Assembly: GCA_958424475.1 (NCBI GenBank) | Contig: CATZTY010000046.1 | Span: 1-7,438, forward strand | DNA: 7,438 bases | DNA from: an uncultured Collinsella sp. | GTDB lineage: Bacteria > Actinomycetota > Coriobacteriia > Coriobacteriales > Coriobacteriaceae | Direction: 5' to 3' | Translations under genes and position numbers: made by a program | In this document: piece after piece, positions 892 through 7,202 of the stretch | Layout: each line of letters starts with the position of its first letter | Position numbering within the stretch: position 1 is the first letter of the stretch | Notes under the pieces: model-generated | Database searches by the model: none | Seen by the model: only the letters and a program-made list of their open reading frames with translations | What the model was told of the DNA's origin: nothing

Positions 892-2562
892 ATGTCTCAA
901 GAAACCATCCGCGCGGCCGAGCATGCCGCGGGACAGGTGAAGACCATGTCGACGTATGATCTGGACTCCGACCAGCTGCATGAGGAATGCGGCATTTTTG
1001 GTGTGTGGGCACCCGATCGCGATGTGGCTCGACTGACGTACTTTGGTCTGCGCGCGCTGCAGCATCGCGGCCAGGAATCGGCGGGAATCGCCGTGGGTGA
1101 TGGCGGCACGGTTATGGTCCGCAAGGATCTGGGCCTGCTCGACCGCGTGTTCTCCAACGCCGACCTGTCGACACTCTCCGGCCAGCTGGCCGTGGGCCAC
1201 GTGCGCTATGGCACTGCCGGTGCCAAGAGCTGGGAAGCCTCGCAGCCGCATCTTTCTACCATCAACAGCGTCATTATCGCGCTCGCGCACAACGGTACCC
1301 TCGTCAACACCGACGAGCTGCGCCGCCAGCTGATCGAGCTGGGCGTGCCGTTCCTTTCCAATTCGGATTCCGAGGTCGCGACCAAGCTTATCGGCTACTT
1401 TACCCAGCGTACGGGTCATCTGCGTGAGGGCATTCGCAAGACCATGGAGCTCGTGCGCGGCGGCTACGCCATGACGCTCATCAACGAGCAGGCGCTCTAC
1501 GCATTCCGCGATCCGCACGGCATTCGCCCGCTCGTGCTGGGCAAGCTGGTGGACGAGGGTCTGGACCAGGCCGATGCCGCATCCGTTTCGCAGCTGCCCT
1601 CGCAAGACGGCGCCGCGACGGTCGACTCCGCCGTCCGTGTCACGCGCGCCGGCGGCTGGGTCGTTGCCTCTGAGACTTGCGCGCTCGATATCGTGGGCGC
1701 CGAGTACGTCCGTGACGTCCGTCCCGGCGAGATCTTGCGCATCAGCGCCGAGGGTCTGGTATCCGAGCAGGGCGTGCCTGCAGCCGAAGAGCCCGCAAAC
1801 TGCATCTTTGAGCAGGTCTACTTTGCCCGCCCCGACTCCATCATGAACGGCAAGAGCGTCTATGCCTGCCGTTATGACATGGGTCGTCAGCTGGCACACG
1901 AGGAGCCCGTCGAGGCCGACCTGGTCATCGGCGTGCCCGACTCCGGCCTGCCGCCCGCGGAGGGCTATTCGCACGAGAGTGGCATTCCCTTTGGCGAGGG
2001 CCTCATCAAGAACCGCTATGTGGGCCGTACGTTTATCGAGCCTACGCAGGAGCTGCGTGCCATGGGCGTGCGTATGAAGCTCAACCCGCTGCGTGACAAC
2101 ATCGAGGGCAAGCGCCTGGTCGTCATCGACGACTCCATCGTGCGCGGCACCACCATGGTGCAGCTCGTCAAGATGCTGCGCAACGCCGGCGCCAAGGAGA
2201 TTCATATCCGCATCAACTCGCCCGAGGTCATCTGGCCGTGCTTCTACGGTATCGATACCGACGTGCAGTCGCAGCTTATCAGCGCCAACAAGACGGTCGA
2301 CGAGATTTGCGAGTATATCGGCGCCGATTCGCTGGCCTTCCTTTCGGTCGAGGGCCTGCTTAAGGTCATGCCCAAGGGCGGTTACTGCGATGCGTGCTTT
2401 ACCGGCCGCTACCCCGTGGCGATTCCCGAGAGCTTTGGCCGCGACAAGTTCATGGAGGGCTTTAAGCCCCGCAACCTGGATAAGCCGCTGCACTTTGATG
2501 ACGACGCCGTGGTCGAGAAATACGACGATCGCAGCTGGGAAGAGGAACACGGCGAGGCCTAA
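892..2562 (+). CDS. purF: Amidophosphoribosyltransferase (PurF)
   Basis: Catalyses the first committed step of purine synthesis, converting PRPP and glutamine to 5-phosphoribosylamine. The 556-residue product has an N-terminal Ntn glutamine amidotransferase domain with the nucleophile Cys33 (EECGIFGVW), followed by LQHRGQESAGI, GHVRYGTAG, AHNGTLVN and SNSDSE. The C-terminal phosphoribosyltransferase domain has the PRPP loop VVIDDSIVRGTT (residues 410-421). Cys304, Cys450, Cys499 and Cys502 match the four 4Fe-4S ligands of the Bacillus-type enzyme, so an oxygen-sensitive, propeptide-processed form is expected. It is longer than the B. subtilis enzyme, partly because of about 30 extra residues between RPLVLGKL and GGWVVASE (about 220-253). 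The start at 892 has GAGGGG at 881-886. A second in-frame ATG at 946 has AGGTGA at 935-940 and would leave a 14-residue propeptide, so the true start is open. The stop codon lies inside a repeat hairpin. Confidence 0.97.
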   Translation: MSQETIRAAEHAAGQVKTMSTYDLDSDQLHEECGIFGVWAPDRDVARLTYFGLRALQHRGQESAGIAVGDGGTVMVRKDLGLLDRVFSNADLSTLSGQLAVGHVRYGTAGAKSWEASQPHLSTINSVIIALAHNGTLVNTDELRRQLIELGVPFLSNSDSEVATKLIGYFTQRTGHLREGIRKTMELVRGGYAMTLINEQALYAFRDPHGIRPLVLGKLVDEGLDQADAASVSQLPSQDGAATVDSAVRVTRAGGWVVASETCALDIVGAEYVRDVRPGEILRISAEGLVSEQGVPAAEEPANCIFEQVYFARPDSIMNGKSVYACRYDMGRQLAHEEPVEADLVIGVPDSGLPPAEGYSHESGIPFGEGLIKNRYVGRTFIEPTQELRAMGVRMKLNPLRDNIEGKRLVVIDDSIVRGTTMVQLVKMLRNAGAKEIHIRINSPEVIWPCFYGIDTDVQSQLISANKTVDEICEYIGADSLAFLSVEGLLKVMPKGGYCDACFTGRYPVAIPESFGRDKFMEGFKPRNLDKPLHFDDDAVVEKYDDRSWEEEHGEA

Positions 2563-2602
2563 AACCTGCCAAAAAGGGACAGGTTTATTTTGGTAGGTTT
2601 TA
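2560..2602 (+). repeat. Constant-loop hairpin repeat behind purF (copy A)
   Basis: Left arm TAAAACCTGCCAAAA (2560-2574) pairs with right arm TTTTGGTAGGTTTTA (2588-2602) over 15 bp with a single G-U pair. The 13-base loop AGGGACAGGTTTA (2575-2587) matches the loop of the copies near 7102 and 7140. The first arm base is the T of the purF TAA stop. There is no clean downstream T-run (only TTTT at 2610-2613), so a simple intrinsic terminator is not evident, although the structure could affect purF 3' end stability or purF-purM coupling. Confidence 0.8.
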
Positions 2603-2623
2603 CCTGCTGTTTTGTTGATATGA

Positions 2624-2650
2624 CGGCGCGCGTTGTTATGGCGCGCGCCG
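2624..2650 (+). promoter_or_regulatory. GC-only hairpin in the purF-purM gap
   Basis: CGGCGCGCG (2624-2632) pairs perfectly with CGCGCGCCG (2642-2650) around a 9-base loop. It is a 9-bp stem of G-C pairs only, followed by AAATGAACGC and no T-run. It could be a transcript stabiliser, a pause site or part of an attenuator ahead of purM. Its function is not shown by the sequence. Confidence 0.5.
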
Positions 2651-2670
2651 AAATGAACGCAACTATGAGC

Positions 2671-2699
2671 ACCGTTTGGCGCCCGGGCGGCGCCACGGT
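2671..2699 (+). promoter_or_regulatory. Second hairpin just upstream of the purM ribosome site
   Basis: TGGCGCC (2677-2683) pairs with GGCGCCA (2689-2695) around the loop CGGGC. ACCG (2671-2674) pairs with CGGT (2696-2699) across a 2-base bulge, giving 11 bp in all. The stem ends about ten bases before the GAGAGGAAGG ribosome site of purM, so folding could influence purM translation. The regulatory role is inferred. Confidence 0.45.
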
Positions 2700-2719
2700 A
2701 GTGGGAGAGGAAGGCTCAG

Positions 2720-3823
2720 ATGAGCGACAGCAAGCATGTGACGTATGAGGATGCCGGCGTCGATACCGCCGAGGGCGGCCGCGCCGTTGACGCTATTAAG
2801 CAGATGGTTAAGGACACCAACCGTCCCGAGGTCATCGGCGGCATCGGTGGCTTTGGTGGCCTGTTCTCGGCTGCCGCGCTTAAGGATATGGAAGACCCGA
2901 TTCTGATTAGCGGTACCGACGGCGTGGGCACCAAGCTCGTGCTCGCCCAGATCATGGACCGTCACGAGACGGTGGGCCAGGACCTGGTTGCTATGTGCGT
3001 CAACGACATTCTGGCTTCGGGTGCCGAGCCGCTGTTCTTCCTGGACTACGTTGCCATCGGCCACATCGAGGCCGAGCACATGGCAAAGATCATCAAGGGT
3101 GTGGCCGACGGCTGCAAGCTCGCGGGCTGCGCGCTCGTGGGCGGCGAGATGGCCGAGCACCCCGGCGTCATGGCTCCTGCCGACTACGACCTTGCCGGAT
3201 TTACCGTGGGCGTCGTCGACCGTCCCAAGATGCTCGACCCCGCGAATGTCCGTCCCGGCGACGTGATCCTGGGCCTGCCTTCCACCGGCGTGCACTCCAA
3301 CGGCTACTCGCTCGTGCGTAAGGTCATTGGCGTCGACGGTATTAAGCCGGGCACGCCCGAGGCCGCCGCTAAGGCCGAGGAGCTGAGCCGTCCGCTCGAG
3401 GAACTCGGCGGCGCATCGCTGGCAGACGCCCTGTTGGCCCCCACGCGCATCTATGTCAAGCCGATTCTGGAGCTGCTGCGCGGTGGCGCTCCGGTGCACG
3501 CCATCGCCCACATCACCGGCGGCGGCATCACCGAGAACCTCAACCGCGCGCTCGCCGACGACGTCGACGCCGTGGTCACCCGCAACGGCGCCGAGATGGG
3601 TTGGGACGTTCCGCCCGTCATCACCTACGTGTCGCGCCAGGCCGAGCTCGCGCCCAACGAGGCATGCAAGACCTTCAACATGGGCGTTGGCCTGTGCCTG
3701 ATCGTCGCCCCCGAGGACGAGGCTGCCGTGACCGAGGCCCTGGTCGCGCTGGGCGAGAAGCCGTTCCGCGTGGGCGAGTGCGTCGAGGGCTCCGGTAAGG
3801 TCGTGTACTCCGATGAGCGCTAA
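2720..3823 (+). CDS. purM: Phosphoribosylformylglycinamidine cyclo-ligase (AIR synthetase, PurM)
   Basis: Closes the imidazole ring: FGAM plus ATP gives AIR, the fifth step of IMP synthesis, in the cytoplasm. The 367-residue protein is close to the usual family length (about 345), with the extra residues mostly at the N-terminus and in loops. Family hallmarks are all present: GVDTAEGGRAVDAIK near the start, the nucleotide loop SGTDGVGTKL (residues 64-73), VAMCVNDILASGAEPLFFLDY spanning Asp96, GCALVGGEMAEHPG, PSTGVHSNGYSLVRK and HITGGGITENLNRAL (from residue 264). The start has a GAGAGGAAGG ribosome site (2705-2714). It lies 157 bases behind purF in a gap with three hairpins, and its last 11 bases overlap purN, so purM and purN are almost certainly cotranscribed. 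No broken motif or unusual codon use is seen. Confidence 0.97.
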   Translation: MSDSKHVTYEDAGVDTAEGGRAVDAIKQMVKDTNRPEVIGGIGGFGGLFSAAALKDMEDPILISGTDGVGTKLVLAQIMDRHETVGQDLVAMCVNDILASGAEPLFFLDYVAIGHIEAEHMAKIIKGVADGCKLAGCALVGGEMAEHPGVMAPADYDLAGFTVGVVDRPKMLDPANVRPGDVILGLPSTGVHSNGYSLVRKVIGVDGIKPGTPEAAAKAEELSRPLEELGGASLADALLAPTRIYVKPILELLRGGAPVHAIAHITGGGITENLNRALADDVDAVVTRNGAEMGWDVPPVITYVSRQAELAPNEACKTFNMGVGLCLIVAPEDEAAVTEALVALGEKPFRVGECVEGSGKVVYSDER

Positions 3824-4514
3824 CGAGCAGATGGCTGCTGCCGCGAGCCTGGGCTTTGTGCCCTACACCCGTCCGACCGGCACCGATACGGCCGAGCCGC
3901 TCAAGATCGGTGTGCTCATCAGCGGTTCGGGTACCAACCTGCAGGCGCTGATCGATCTGATCGCCGCCGGCAAGCTCAACGCTTCGATTGAGCTTGTGGT
4001 GTCGAGCCGTCCTTCGGCTAAGGGTTTGCAGCGCGCTGAGCGCGCGGGCATCCAGACGCTCACGCTGTCCAAGGATGTCTATGCCGACCCCATCGCCGCC
4101 GACGAGATCATCGCGCACGAGCTGCTCGAGCGCGGCTGCGAATATGTGGTCATGGCCGGTTACATGCGCATGGTGCACACGCCGCTGCTGGCGGCGTTTC
4201 CCAACCGCGTGGTCAACTTGCATCCGGCACTGCTGCCGAGCTTTACCGGCGCGCATGCGATCGACGATGCCTTTGCGCGCGGCGTCAAGGTAACCGGTGT
4301 GACCGTGCACTTTGCCAACGAGATCTACGACAACGGCCCCATCATCGCCCAGCGCGCGCTGGCTGTCGAGGAAGGTTGGGATGTCGACACGCTCGAGGAG
4401 CACATCCACGCGATTGAGCACGTGCTGTATCCCGAGGTCGTGCAAATGCTCGCCGACGGCCGCGTCCACGTGCTGGAGAGCGGCAAGGTCGCAATTGACG
4501 CGCCTCGCGGCTAG
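3813..4514 (+). CDS. purN: Phosphoribosylglycinamide formyltransferase (GART, PurN)
   Basis: Transfers a formyl group from 10-formyltetrahydrofolate to GAR, giving FGAR, the third step of purine synthesis. The Rossmann-type formyltransferase core begins near residue 30 with LKIGVLISGSGTNLQ. The catalytic triad of E. coli PurN (Asn106, His108, Asp144) is matched by Asn135, His137 (VVNLHPALLPSF) and Asp173 (EIYDNGP), with the same 36-residue His-Asp spacing. At 233 residues it is longer than the E. coli protein (212) because of a 29-residue low-complexity N-terminal extension. The chosen ATG overlaps the purM stop by 11 bases, as in coupled translation. An in-frame ATG at 3831 would shorten the extension but has no better ribosome site. 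It is the last purine gene before the terminator. Confidence 0.96.
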   Translation: MSANEQMAAAASLGFVPYTRPTGTDTAEPLKIGVLISGSGTNLQALIDLIAAGKLNASIELVVSSRPSAKGLQRAERAGIQTLTLSKDVYADPIAADEIIAHELLERGCEYVVMAGYMRMVHTPLLAAFPNRVVNLHPALLPSFTGAHAIDDAFARGVKVTGVTVHFANEIYDNGPIIAQRALAVEEGWDVDTLEEHIHAIEHVLYPEVVQMLADGRVHVLESGKVAIDAPRG

Positions 4515-4544
4515 CGGCGCACAGTACAATTTAGCCGAGTAGTC

Positions 4545-4589
4545 AGGGTGGTCATTGGCGCCAAGGCGCGCGTGGCCACCTTTTGTTTT
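4545..4589 (+). terminator. Intrinsic terminator after purN
   Basis: Bases 4545-4555 pair with 4572-4582 (core GGTGGTC with GGCCACC, including G-U pairs). The loop itself holds a small GCGC/GCGC hairpin. The tract TTTTGTTTT follows at 4581-4589. This fits a Rho-independent terminator closing the purFMN unit. Confidence 0.75.
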
Positions 4590-4666
4590 GGGTAGTCATC
4601 GGGAACGGTCTTTAACGACTGGTCATTCAAGAACGTCGCAGGTGACTAGATGAGAGAGGTGAGCGC

Positions 4667-5131
4667 ATGGCGGATAACGAAGCGCTGTTTACGCCTGAGC
4701 TAGTGTTTTTTGATTGGGAGTGTGCAACGCCGGATGAGGTGTTTGCGCGGCTCGAGGGCGAGCTTGCACCACGTGGCTGCATTGCGTCCGGTTGGCTCGA
4801 CGCCGTTCGCGCGCGCGAGGATGCCTATCCCACGGGTCTTGCCATGCCGGCGGCAAACATTGCCATTCCGCATGCCGATCCGGGGTTTGTGGCCAAGCCC
4901 TATATCGCGGTGGTGAAGCCCGCCGCGCCCGTGACATTTAACGCTATGGCTGGCATGGGCGCTCCGGTGCCGGCGCAGATCGTCATCAATCTGGGCATCG
5001 CCGAGCCGGGCGGCCAGGTCGAGGCCCTGCAGGCGCTCATGAACATCTTTATGGACGCCGATGCCGCAGCCGACGTGCTCGGCCAGACCACGCCCCAGGG
5101 CATGGTCGACGCCATCCGCCGTCACTTCTAA
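4667..5131 (+). CDS. PTS EIIA component, fructose/mannitol/galactitol type (PTS_EIIA_2)
   Basis: A 154-residue cytoplasmic protein of the PTS EIIA type 2 fold. These proteins take a phosphoryl group from HPr on a histidine and pass it to an EIIB domain. The predicted phospho-site is His69 in NIAIPHADPGF, preceded by the usual YPTGLAMPAA stretch and followed by KPYIAVVKPAAPVTF. The length and the PHADP context resemble GatA-like galactitol EIIA more than the fructose type, but the substrate cannot be assigned. The ribosome site AGAGGTGA (4655-4662) stands four bases from the ATG. No EIIB, EIIC or sugar-metabolism gene is adjacent, so it may work with PTS parts encoded elsewhere or serve as a regulatory phosphocarrier. 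It has its own transcription unit after the purN terminator, with no clear promoter visible. Confidence 0.88.
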   Translation: MADNEALFTPELVFFDWECATPDEVFARLEGELAPRGCIASGWLDAVRAREDAYPTGLAMPAANIAIPHADPGFVAKPYIAVVKPAAPVTFNAMAGMGAPVPAQIVINLGIAEPGGQVEALQALMNIFMDADAAADVLGQTTPQGMVDAIRRHF

Positions 5132-5141
5132 GGTGGGGCGG

Positions 5142-5176
5142 AGCCGGCACTTGGGGACTGTCCCTAACTGCCGGCT
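5142..5176 (+). repeat. Constant-loop hairpin repeat behind the EIIA gene (copy B)
   Basis: Arms AGCCGGCACTT (5142-5152) and AACTGCCGGCT (5166-5176) pair over 10 of 11 positions, with one C-C mismatch. The loop GGGGACTGTCCCT (5153-5165) is again 13 bases and starts GGGGAC, but its second half is replaced so that the loop is itself nearly palindromic. It begins 10 bases after the EIIA stop codon. There is no T-run, so it is not a standard terminator. Confidence 0.65.
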
Positions 5177-5183
5177 GCCAGAG

Positions 5184-5234
5184 CTGTCCCCTTTGCACCA
5201 AAATGGTGCAGATTAACCTGTCCCCAATGCACCA
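5184..5234 (-). repeat. Compound repeat with two CTGTCCCC cores and three TGCACCA arms (copy C)
   Basis: On the plus strand the order is CTGTCCCC (5184-5191), TGCACCA (5194-5200), AAA, TGGTGCA (5204-5210), GATTAAC, CTGTCCCC (5218-5225), AA, TGCACCA (5228-5234). Read on the minus strand, one unit is TGGTGCATT, the loop GGGGACAGGTTAA, then TCTGCACCA, which is the same plan as copies A and D. The first TGCACCA/TGGTGCA pair also forms a tight hairpin with a 3-base loop. The left core lacks its second arm and abuts copy B. Confidence 0.7.
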
Positions 5235-5254
5235 AGCGTGCCGCGGGGGCTGCG

Positions 5255-5266
5255 TTGTGACACAAT
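5255..5266 (+). promoter_or_regulatory. Possible promoter or operator of the foldase gene
   Basis: TTGTGACACAA (5255-5265) is a perfect 11-base palindrome. CACAAT (5261-5266), a plausible -10, overlaps it 36 bases before the foldase ATG. There is no convincing -35. A repressor site over a promoter is possible, but this is only a weak pattern match. Confidence 0.25.
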
Positions 5267-5301
5267 GGCGTTTGTTCGATTCGTTATGCGAAAGGCCAAC
5301 T

Positions 5302-6522
5302 ATGGCAAATAAGAAAAAGAACTCCGGGGTCGCGCCGACGCCCGAGCAGCAGGCCCGCGCTGCCTCCAGCTCTCGCAAGAAGCAGCGCAAGACGTACGTG
5401 TCTAAGACCGTCAAGATCGTCCTGGTGGTCATCGGCGTGCTGGCAATGCTGCTTTCCGTCTCGGCCATGGCGTGCTCCGGCCTTATGTCGCAGGCCGAGG
5501 ACACCTCGGGCTACAAGCTGACCGGCGGTGTTGCTGCAACTATCAACGGCACCAACCTCACCGAGGACACCGTGACCAAGCAGATCATGAGCATGCGCAC
5601 GTCCTACGGCTACACCAAGGATAAGGATTGGGCGCAGTATCTGGTTGACAACGACCTCACGCCCAAGAAGTACCGCAAACAACTCATCGACTCCTACACG
5701 CAGCAGATTCTGCTTCAACAGGCACAGAAGGAGAACGGCGTGACGGTGTCGGACGAGGAGGTCGAGAAGGCTTGGAAGGACGCGTGCAAGAGCGCAGGCG
5801 GTGCCAAGGCCTTTAAGAAGACCCTCAAGACCTACGGCTATACCGAGGACACCTACAAGGACTCGCTCAAGGAGAGTCTGGCGCAACAGAAACTCAAGGA
5901 TGCCGTCGCGCCCACGAGCAAGCCCAAGGACAGCGAGATTGTCGATTACATCAACGAGAACCTGTCCAGCTACAACGACGCCCGCCGCTCGTCGAACATC
6001 CTGATCAAGGTTGATTCCGACGCTTCCGACGAGGACAAGGCCGCCGCCAAGGCCAAGGCGCAGGAGTGCCTGGACAAGATCAACTCCGGTGAGCTGAGCT
6101 TTGAGGACGCCGTAAAGCAGTACTCCGAGGACACCGGTTCCAAGGAGAAGAAGGGCGATGTGGGCTGGGATAAGCTCACCACTTTCGTCGACAGCTACCA
6201 GACGGCGCTCGAGGGGCTCAACAAGGGCGACGTGAGCGAAGTCGTCGAGTCGACCTATGGCTACCACATCATCAAGTGCACCGACTACTTCCATGTCGAT
6301 AATCAGGTTGATGACATCAACCAGGTACCCAAGGACATCAAGAAGTACGTTTCTAATGTGGTGAAGACGCAGGCGGCCAGCACCGCGTACAGCGAGTGGC
6401 TGGAGCAGTACAAGAAGGATGCCGACATCACCGTCAACCCCATGCCCAAAGACGTACCCTATAACGTGAGTCTGAAGGGTGTCACCAAGAGTTCGACCGA
6501 CGATTCGTCGACGACTGAGTAA
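5302..6522 (+). CDS. Membrane-anchored parvulin-type peptidyl-prolyl isomerase / foldase, PrsA-like
   Basis: The predicted role is folding of secreted proteins outside the membrane. The ATG at 5302 has a GAAAGG ribosome site (5290-5295). Upstream in-frame ATGs near 5203 fall inside repeat DNA and are rejected, leaving 406 residues. Residues 1-36 are Lys/Arg-rich and cytoplasmic, and 37-57 form one hydrophobic helix. Cys58 follows in SAMAC, a poor lipobox, so a transmembrane anchor is as likely as a lipid anchor. A SurA/PrsA-like helical chaperone region covers about 75-225. The parvulin domain runs from about 228 to 328, from NILIKV to GDVGW, FVDSYQTALEGLNKGDVSEVV and TYGYHIIKC. The His usual in the first motif (HIL) is Asn232 here, while the late His322 remains, so isomerase activity is uncertain. 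The tail is Ser/Thr/Asp-rich. Confidence 0.9.
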   Translation: MANKKKNSGVAPTPEQQARAASSSRKKQRKTYVSKTVKIVLVVIGVLAMLLSVSAMACSGLMSQAEDTSGYKLTGGVAATINGTNLTEDTVTKQIMSMRTSYGYTKDKDWAQYLVDNDLTPKKYRKQLIDSYTQQILLQQAQKENGVTVSDEEVEKAWKDACKSAGGAKAFKKTLKTYGYTEDTYKDSLKESLAQQKLKDAVAPTSKPKDSEIVDYINENLSSYNDARRSSNILIKVDSDASDEDKAAAKAKAQECLDKINSGELSFEDAVKQYSEDTGSKEKKGDVGWDKLTTFVDSYQTALEGLNKGDVSEVVESTYGYHIIKCTDYFHVDNQVDDINQVPKDIKKYVSNVVKTQAASTAYSEWLEQYKKDADITVNPMPKDVPYNVSLKGVTKSSTDDSSTTE

Positions 6523-6527
6523 TCATG

Positions 6528-6553
6528 GGGCGGTGCTCGCGCGAGTGCCGCCC
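6528..6553 (+). promoter_or_regulatory. GC-rich hairpin between the foldase gene and yqeY
   Basis: GGGCGGTGCTC (6528-6538) pairs with GAGTGCCGCCC (6543-6553) over 11 bp with two G-U pairs and a 4-base loop GCGC. ACACTATTGAGG follows, not a T-run, so it is not a clear terminator. It ends ten bases before the yqeY ribosome site and may modulate readthrough, RNA stability or translation. Confidence 0.5.
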
Positions 6554-6576
6554 ACACTATTGAGGAGGATTTGCAG

Positions 6577-7020
6577 ATGACCAACGAAGAGCTGCAGAAG
6601 GAAATGATTGCGGCCATGAAGGCCAAGGACAAGGTTCGCCTGTCCATCATTCGCCAGGTTAAGGCCGAGGTGAAGAATATCGAGGTCAATGAGCGCCGCG
6701 ATGTGACCGAGGAAGACGTCAACAGCATGATCAAGCGTCTGATCAAGCAGACGAGCGAGACGCTGGAGATGTCCATCAAGGCCGGCACCGACCAGGAGCG
6801 TACCGACAACCTGACCGAGCAGGTCAAGATTCTGGAGAGCCTGCTGCCCGCGCAGGTTTCGGGCGAGGAGCTCGAGGCCCTGATCGAGCAGGTTATCGCC
6901 GAGCTGGGCGCCACGTCCAAGAAGCAGATGGGCCAGGTTATGGGCGCACTCGGCAAGGCCACCGGTGGCAACTTCGATAAGCCGGCCGCGGCAAAGATCG
7001 TCGGAGCCAAACTCGCGTAG
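6577..7020 (+). CDS. yqeY: GatB/YqeY domain-containing protein
   Basis: A 147-residue protein of the YqeY family, a stand-alone relative of the tail domain of GatB (the amidotransferase subunit that makes Gln-tRNA or Asn-tRNA). The biochemical role of the free-standing protein is not established, so function beyond a tRNA-related guess is open. The family pattern is complete: an N-terminal helical part (EMIAAMKAKDKVRLSIIRQVKAEVKN), the charged centre EEDVNSMIKRLIKQ, LLPAQVSGEEL, and the C-terminal KKQMGQVMGAL and GNFDKPAAAKIVGAKL. AGGAGG (6563-6568) is eight bases from this ATG. A TTG at 6571, only two bases from it, is a poor start. It lies 54 bases behind the foldase gene with a hairpin between, and a strong terminator follows it. 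Confidence 0.93.
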   Translation: MTNEELQKEMIAAMKAKDKVRLSIIRQVKAEVKNIEVNERRDVTEEDVNSMIKRLIKQTSETLEMSIKAGTDQERTDNLTEQVKILESLLPAQVSGEELEALIEQVIAELGATSKKQMGQVMGALGKATGGNFDKPAAAKIVGAKLA

Positions 7021-7047
7021 GGGCCGAGCGGTACATAGTTGATGTTT

Positions 7048-7082
7048 AGGGGGGCGTGGCCGTCATGGTCGCGCCCCTTTTT
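7048..7082 (+). terminator. Intrinsic terminator after yqeY
   Basis: GGGGCGTGGCC (7051-7061) pairs with GGTCGCGCCCC (7067-7077) over 11 bp with two wobble pairs around GTCAT. TTTTT (7078-7082) follows, and further A/G-T pairs can extend the base of the stem. It is a textbook Rho-independent terminator and separates yqeY from the ABC ATPase gene. Confidence 0.88.
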
Positions 7083-7088
7083 GCTGGG

Positions 7089-7127
7089 CTGGGCACTCAT
7101 TGGGGACAGGCTTAAATGAGTGCCCGG
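7089..7127 (+). repeat. Constant-loop hairpin repeat behind yqeY (copy D1)
   Basis: GGGCACTCATT (7091-7101) and AATGAGTGCCC (7115-7125) are perfect 11-base inverted arms, extendable by a wobble and a C-G pair. The 13-base loop GGGGACAGGCTTA (7102-7114) differs from the loop of copy A at only two positions, although the arms are unrelated. Confidence 0.85.
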
Positions 7128-7131
7128 GCTA

Positions 7132-7202
7132 CGCTCATTGGGGACGGGCTTAAATGAGTGCCCAATGAGCAGGTACTCATTTAAGTCTGTCCCCAATGAC
7201 TA
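7132..7202. repeat. Pair of opposed constant-loop repeats (copies D2 and D3)
   Basis: D2 has arms CGCTCATT (7132-7139) and AATGAGTG (7153-7160), with one wobble, around the loop GGGGACGGGCTTA (7140-7152). D3 lies in reverse, with the loop GGGGACAGACTTA read on the minus strand (7182-7194) and short arms CTCATT and AATGAC. D2 and D3 together form an inverted repeat of 23 bases (7140-7162 with 7172-7194) around a 9-base spacer. All three imperfections are G-T, so the plus-strand RNA can pair along the full 23 bp. Confidence 0.8.

Follow-up and report, generated by a model that had tools for sequence, protein, structure and literature searches.

Hairpin repeats of Collinsella as probable dispersed ends of Y1 transposase genes, with a GGGAC loop and clade-private arms

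The window analysed here, a stretch of 7,438 nucleotides from an uncultured Collinsella sp. (contig CATZTY010000046.1), harbours six hairpins, each with a 13-base core between inverted arms. They are found behind the purF gene, at the gene coding for an EIIA protein and behind the yqeY gene. We consider it probable, at roughly 0.7, that small Y1 transposase genes are the source of these hairpins, as dispersed copies of their end repeats with a GGGAC-containing loop and arms private to each transposase clade, and that the copies were likely spread by a transposase reading both parts. The six hairpins fall into four families with a common loop and different stems, namely A (yqeY), B (purF) and both C and D (EIIA gene). 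We found an end-repeat origin for families A and B and infer it for C and D.

Hairpin families and the transposase genes that bear them

Families A and B form the ends of Y1 transposase genes. In G001, the nearest genome compared (50% of the window's sampled 31-letter words in common), a Y1 gene coding for a 282-residue protein is bracketed by inverted A units, and likewise at four other loci (L044, L051, L052 and L058). The A unit is the terminal inverted repeat (TIR) in seven of the eight closest named Collinsella loci, the eighth, L066, scoring none. The B units bracket a 322-residue Y1 gene on both sides in genome G004, and a Y1 gene lies between B units at loci L053 and L300. This B transposase gene was found in 3/43 genomes, as the G004 gene, a 97% counterpart in G050 and a decayed version in G027, and no close copy of it was found in 17 of the 19 genomes that carry B units. 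An earlier, sequence-only reading of the window had named repetitive extragenic palindrome (REP)-like elements, moved by a Y1 or REP-associated tyrosine transposase (RAYT), as the nearest known class, and had proposed a search for Y1 genes flanked by the same core. The search yielded such genes for both families, in agreement with that placement.

A Pfam search for Y1_Tnp gave matches in 14 of 21 genomes, and the domain is present in all 11 aligned members of the transposase group. The E. coli TnpA_REP protein (4er8) ranks first both with the sequence profile (E=3.3e-4) and with the predicted fold (E=3.2e-6). A helix-turn-helix (HTH) domain, HTH_23, was detected in 4/11 members at E<=0.1, with a best value of 2.8e-5; in the family A protein it does not reach the Pfam cut-off. 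C-terminal helices are predicted.

Genomes G011, G005 and G028 contain an internal-deletion derivative of the A element (L453, L454 and L455), a small non-autonomous element that retains both ends; one inner breakpoint is identical in the derivatives and the other lies within about 20 bases. At the B transposase site, comparison of L336 (G013) with L053 and L330 indicated a short scar in this one genome, which fits a deletion between AACCTG repeats, one in the left arm and the other in the right core.

In the window, the family B copy behind purF (positions 2560 to 2602, plus strand) comprises arms at 2560–2574 and 2588–2602, with 15 pairs including one G-T, around the core AGGGACAGGTTTA at 2575–2587. 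The family D copy behind the EIIA gene (5143 to 5175, plus strand) has the arms GCCGGCA (5143–5149) and TGCCGGC (5169–5175) and the core GGGGACTGTCCCT at 5153–5165. This core is self-complementary (GGGACTGTCCC) and thus differs from the asymmetric loop of the other copies. Family C is represented near the EIIA gene by a copy on the minus strand (5204 to 5234), with the arms TGGTGCA and TGCACCA and the core GGGGACAGGTTAA at 5213–5225, and by a partial copy on the same strand (5179 to 5201), with the arm TGGTGCA and the core GGGGACAGCTCTG and without a matching right arm. Three family A copies lie behind yqeY. Copy 1 (7091 to 7125, plus strand) has the arms GGGCACTCATT and AATGAGTGCCC and the core GGGGACAGGCTTA at 7102–7114, and copy 2 (7132 to 7160, plus strand) has the arms CGCTCATT and AATGAGTG and the core GGGGACGGGCTTA at 7140–7152. 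Copy 3 is inverted (7174 to 7202, minus strand), with the imperfect arms TAGTCATT and AATGAGTA and the core GGGGACAGACTTA at 7182–7194.

Base 7 of the 13-base core was taken as the dyad for scoring arm pairing, which was compared with 2000 rounds of shuffling of the right flanks. Pairing exceeded the shuffles at all six hairpins, the observed pairing being reached in 0 rounds for the core at 2575, in 1 each for those at 5153 and 5213 (minus strand) and, for the A copies, in 0 (7102), 7 (7140) and 17 (7182, minus strand). All six cores lie at the coordinates given in the sequence-only reading, and the hairpins that it had described are upheld. Single-stranded folding placed four of the six hairpins below shuffles (z -4.5, -5.9, -2.1 and -5.7). 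Within the window, the core itself is only weakly above chance, with seven matches at up to three mismatches for a mean of 2.2, and 2 of 200 shuffles reach seven.

The TAA stop codon of purF (2560–2562) falls in the edge of the B unit, an arrangement also seen at the copies L016, L027 and L030. GTAG-type REPs are reported to supply stop codons, and the TAA of the B unit can be likened to them.

We scanned related genomes for these units. In G001, the core GGGGACAGNYTTA with at most one mismatch occurs at 54 places, compared with 3 for the reversed pattern. Simple arm rules assigned 13 of the 30 places read to family A, 14 to family B and three to neither, and 22 of the 30 have a stem of at least five pairs. 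Allowing two mismatches, the A pattern matched 22 of 43 genomes, with 8–31 places in each, some of them having the related loop GACGTACTTA; allowing one mismatch, the B pattern matched 19 of 39, with 16–37 places in each. The reversed controls gave 0 in both cases. All 19 B-carrying genomes also carry family A, and the copies of both families are scattered over one part of the genus.

The arms of each family thus recur at many places and are not locus-specific, contrary to the sequence-only reading. Its related statement, that the loop alone is conserved, holds between families, as each transposase clade has its own arms, and fails within a family, where arms and loop are copied together. Neither outcome that it had named as refuting was obtained: flank pairing did not fall to the level of shuffles, nor did a single arm sequence occur throughout.

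At orthologous sites, the B unit at the purF stop codon is present in 18/18 alignable loci out of 19. In its inner left arm, the window shares AAAA with three relatives, and the remaining 15 have ATGT, ATTT or ATAT. The family C copy is kept in 19 aligned orthologous loci, with a decayed core in some, and the family D copy is missing from 4 of 19 and represented by more than one unit in others.

End repeats of related Y1 genes

GTDB contigs were scanned with an alignment of these transposases, and the best 80 matches of a longer list, 73 of them with both flanks, formed the main set. TIRs were sought without any motif and accepted when they scored above all 50 shuffles. They were detected at 69 of the 73 loci, and GGGAC or its complement is present in both copies at 55 of these 69, for an expectation of 3.4% of random same-length flank pairs. 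This motif-free scan provides the unbiased figure; the base composition around GGGAC was not used as evidence, since its positions are fixed by selection.

The GGGAC motif has a precise position in the hairpin. A stem of at least six pairs was found at 42.7% of 199 GGGAC cores (57 loci), compared with 4.2% when the right flanks were swapped. Among distinct units with stems of at least seven pairs, the dyad falls exactly on the base after GGGAC (base 7) in 77/85, a count that took self-complementary cores on both strands, compared with 9.1/18.9 in the swapped control. Leaving out self-complementary cores gave 47/55 for a control of 4.1/12.8. Such a unit, with its dyad on the base after GGGAC, occurs in 30 of the 37 arm types. 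The strand bearing GGGAC reads inward, toward the gene, at 30 of the 33 loci with non-palindromic cores; two read outward and one is mixed.

The arms, in turn, vary with the gene. Over ten arm bases, the two ends of one gene have a mean identity of 0.83 (n=53), and ends of different genes 0.39 (n=1424). Pairs with Y1 domains at least 85% identical have similar arms (15 pairs, mean 0.91; 41/43 proteins), and similar arms are rare below 65% identity (784 pairs in four bands, 0–2% alike). Of the Y1 genes of this kind that were examined in Coriobacteriia, most have GGGAC-type ends, and their arms vary among genes. The HTH part was considered as the reader of the arms and was favoured on 31 loci; the fuller 41/43 set gave equal results for the HUH and HTH parts, and this candidate was dropped.

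We also considered plasmids. Among 13 plasmid records with a related protein, eight were read, and five of these have end repeats above shuffles, barely so for Sporomusa. All five TIR-bearing loci carry GGGAC or GGGTC. Candidate short stems on the same axis were noted in Acetoanaerobium (five pairs) and Pseudoalteromonas (four pairs), and the Rhodospirillum repeat has a self-complementary centre.

Unit turnover and alternative origins

Orthologous sites provided information on how the units change. At yqeY, 18 of 19 relatives are alignable, with two cores in 16 and one core in two, and the 38-bp extra A unit (copy 1 or 2) is found in the window alone. At the L003 site, a 42-bp unit is present in two of four alignable sites. 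At the L014 site (L251–L254), the same arms enclose the loop GGGGACAGACTTA in G001 and GGGGACGTTCTTA in G008 and G046; loop types can thus be exchanged between families.

A related hairpin, called F (AAACCACCACAAAGGGGACAGGCACCTTTGTGGTGGTTT), lies behind an HD-domain gene (L331–L346) and was found in 14 of the 15 loci read. Its arms are CCGCC and GGCGG in three genomes and CCACC and GGTGG in the others, a compensatory change. In one genome (L343), the loop at this orthologous site is inverted and the arms are kept. In another (L333), the left flank has been replaced by the reverse complement of the right one, with 19 straight matches, a result obtained in 0 of 1000 shuffles, and 13 orthologues score 5–9 in the same comparison. 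Self-templated rewriting at this one site is clear.

Could such self-templating, by template switching at quasi-palindromes, keep giving a conserved core new matched arms locally? Besides L333 and L343, the yqeY site would fit, as the states of its two inverted cores match in 12 of 16 genomes, eight having the common AGA and four having three others. Template switching can account for these few rewritten cases and for the F arms. In contrast, the two variable inner arm positions of family B combine at random in each of six genomes (P 0.24–0.83), in a test on 136 copies among the matches listed, many of them orthologous between genomes. Two-sided Watson-Crick changes in 28 flank-matched B groups numbered 3, for a control mean of 3.4. 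General arm covariation was not found in family B. Arms are moreover common to whole families and track the transposase. We therefore regard local self-templating as a quite unlikely source of the families. The sequence-only reading had listed it as one possibility; it is borne out at L333 and not as a rule. That reading had also raised the insertion of a core into a ready-made palindrome at each locus, on the basis of a comparison of three loci, and the L014 site, with the same arms around two loops in different species, might be read in this way. Yet the same arms and core recur together at many unrelated loci, and hence unit and arms move together, and no arms without a core were observed at the orthologous sites read, which makes this explanation highly improbable.

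Another explanation is that the hairpins are host elements, chiefly bidirectional terminators behind genes, the common loop reflecting a host factor. The conservation of the B unit at the purF stop codon in 18 aligned orthologues, the A and T runs that border the B arms and, for F behind the HD-domain gene, the long stems, T tails and compensatory arm change all fit such a role. A terminator scan of the window gave seven sites, compared with 5.4 in shuffles; it considers loops of 3–8 bases only and is blind to loops of 13 bases, and its site at 2591–2609 overlaps the B copy with a different stem. Terminators do not predict that A and B units bracket Y1 genes in an inward orientation, nor that Y1 clades differ in the arms around the same loop. 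In addition, 20/39 genomes are without B and 21/43 without A. On balance we consider a host origin unlikely, slightly less so than self-templating.

Several observations weigh against the hairpins being the ends of transposase genes spread by a loop- and arm-reading enzyme. Regarding the transposase loci, 14 of the 69 with TIRs are without GGGAC in both copies. The 69/73 proportion rests on the best 80 matches, including seven near-identical A loci, so the set is not independent. Proportions were smaller in two other sets, with TIRs at 19/29 loci and GGGAC in both copies at 13/19 in the second, and 11/17 and 8/11, respectively, in the third (non-plasmid) set; the three sets overlap in part. 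Among plasmids, three of eight Y1 loci are without TIR (two Skermanella and one Nostoc), and no stem was found at the axis in two of the five TIR-bearing loci (Iodobacter and Sporomusa). A widespread Collinsella Y1 group has no detectable TIR at eleven loci. Arm similarity tracks the HUH and the C-terminal HTH parts equally, so that the arm-reading domain cannot be distinguished. An exact-pattern search of the transposase loci examined gave no Y1 gene with C, D or F arms. Arms of a further related family, E (GTCATTGGGGACGTTCTTAAACGAC), occur, among the loci examined, only beside a different, IS200-like gene, where an E pair is present.

Other points against this proposal come from the dispersed copies themselves. 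Single-stranded folds of the hairpins at 7140 (z -0.5) and 7182 (minus strand, z +0.7) are no better than shuffles. Common descent appears to account for most B copies, as 109 of 114 B units from six genomes fall into flank-matched groups, one of which, a group of 10, mixes several sites; they thus give no support for present activity of this family. For none of the three G001 copies that were searched did we find a clean empty site of a solitary hairpin: the intergenic DNA around L004 has been replaced, and at L014 and L003 the differences are confined to the loop or to whole units.

The TIR-less loci, apparently one Y1 group, are L039–L042, L318, L319, L322 and L325–L328, with frames of 274–348 residues, most of 344–348. 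In the window, a candidate decayed inverted pair of family E, recognized by sequence reading, is located upstream of the EIIA gene (4585 to 4660, no strand assigned).

Relation to known systems and proposed mechanism

The closest described systems are the TIRYTs or TIRtrons, Y1 genes located between terminal inverted repeats with a common GGGGWSAS motif (Di Nocera 2013, PMC3733652). In the accessible part of that report, some families of TIRYT repeats are dispersed as singles, dimers and clusters, some are partly self-complementary, and the TIRs are described as unrelated to GTAG REPs. According to the portion available of a later survey, most TIRYTs belong to TnpA_Y1 subclass 2.1, with a C-terminal HTH and no REP-like sequence nearby; this is the second largest RAYT-like subclass, for which further analyses were called for (Quentin 2018, PMC6006769). 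The Collinsella families A and B likewise have a Y1 gene between inverted repeats of one unit. The GGGGWSAS motif is matched by A (copy at 7102) and C (GGGGACAG), whereas the A copy at 7140 (GGGGACGG) and B (AGGGACAG) are one base off; in family D the two strands read GGGGACTG and AGGGACAG. They differ from TIRYTs in that the Collinsella TIR is a hairpin with the tag in its loop, a fixed dyad and clade-private arms, and in that dispersed families can be matched to genes. The hairpins thus belong to the known TIRYT kind, and the layout of loop tag and private arms is an added variant with a substrate rule. Among the literature matches listed, the term TIRYT appeared only in PMC3733652 and PMC6006769, and no biochemistry of subclass 2.1 was found. 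Neither the loop-tag and private-arm layout nor these Collinsella families gave a title or abstract match in the literature searched, most subscription papers being outside its scope.

The hairpins also resemble REP/RAYT systems, which consist of short dispersed palindromes found as singles, pairs and arrays, each family going with one Y1 gene that its copies flank in inverted orientation. For A and B, a dispersed palindrome family is matched to one Y1 gene, and the Y1 fold is closest to 4er8. The tag is placed differently. Classical REPs have GTAG or GTRG within 0–2 bases of the 5' foot and a short loop, as summarized in the consulted sections of the survey (PMC6006769), whereas here GGGAC lies inside a loop of about 13 bases. 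Reading the flanks of the six window hairpins by eye, we saw no GTAG at their foot on the strand with GGGAC.

In IS200/IS605 elements, the two ends are distinct and are not inverted copies; in contrast, both ends here are inverted copies of one unit. As in the mechanism proposed for the Collinsella units, elements of this group such as IS608 and ISDra2 have single-stranded hairpins read by a Y1 HUH transposase, and they differ in having the guide outside the hairpin, as far as the accessible text describes them (PMC6006769). Finally, template switching at quasi-palindromes is described, in the parts of two papers available to us, as homogenizing arms and inverting spacers (PMC8794818, PMC8604942). 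L333 and L343 show the same arm homogenization and spacer inversion; this is a mutational process acting on hairpins, separate from their origin.

Under the proposed transposase origin, the arms would pair into a stem once the DNA is single-stranded, on the lagging strand or in an extruded cruciform, and this stem would be the private address that the HUH enzyme binds. Strand and register would be set by the asymmetric GGGAC of the loop, which is a predicted nick or guide site, playing the role that GTAG has at the foot of a classical REP. Both nicking in the loop and transposition are deduced here from sequence comparisons. Other HUH enzymes have hairpin origins that are nicked in the loop. 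In its accessible description, TnpA_REP recognizes a single-stranded hairpin in a strand-specific manner and relies on the GTAG tag to select where it cuts (PMC8266576). On the proposed view, hairpins standing alone would represent non-autonomous ends. The tandem and inverted sets would have formed as whole units were gained or lost next to one already present, possibly as for the extra 38 bp of the window, and template switching at palindromes may rewrite an arm or a flank in one step. A bolder version, which we put forward as tentative and rather doubtful, is that of lock-and-key single-stranded DNA addresses, in which one GGGAC tag beside the dyad, nicked in the loop, would serve an entire subclass of Y1 enzymes across phyla, with stems reinvented in each transposase lineage, and template switching would give birth to matched arm families without loss of the tag.

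As far as the accessible text of the 2018 survey goes, subclass 2.1 was left without a defined DNA substrate (PMC6006769). The rule described here, namely GGGAC one base from the dyad, clade-private arms and the tag strand reading inward, predicts a hairpin substrate for each gene with recognizable ends. It gives a way to match orphan repeat families of gut Coriobacteriia to transposases, and the layout may explain palindrome families that have a common core and yet unrelated-looking stems.

Regarding gene content, the window comprises purF, purM, purN, the EIIA gene, a PrsA-like gene and yqeY, names that were assigned by sequence reading.

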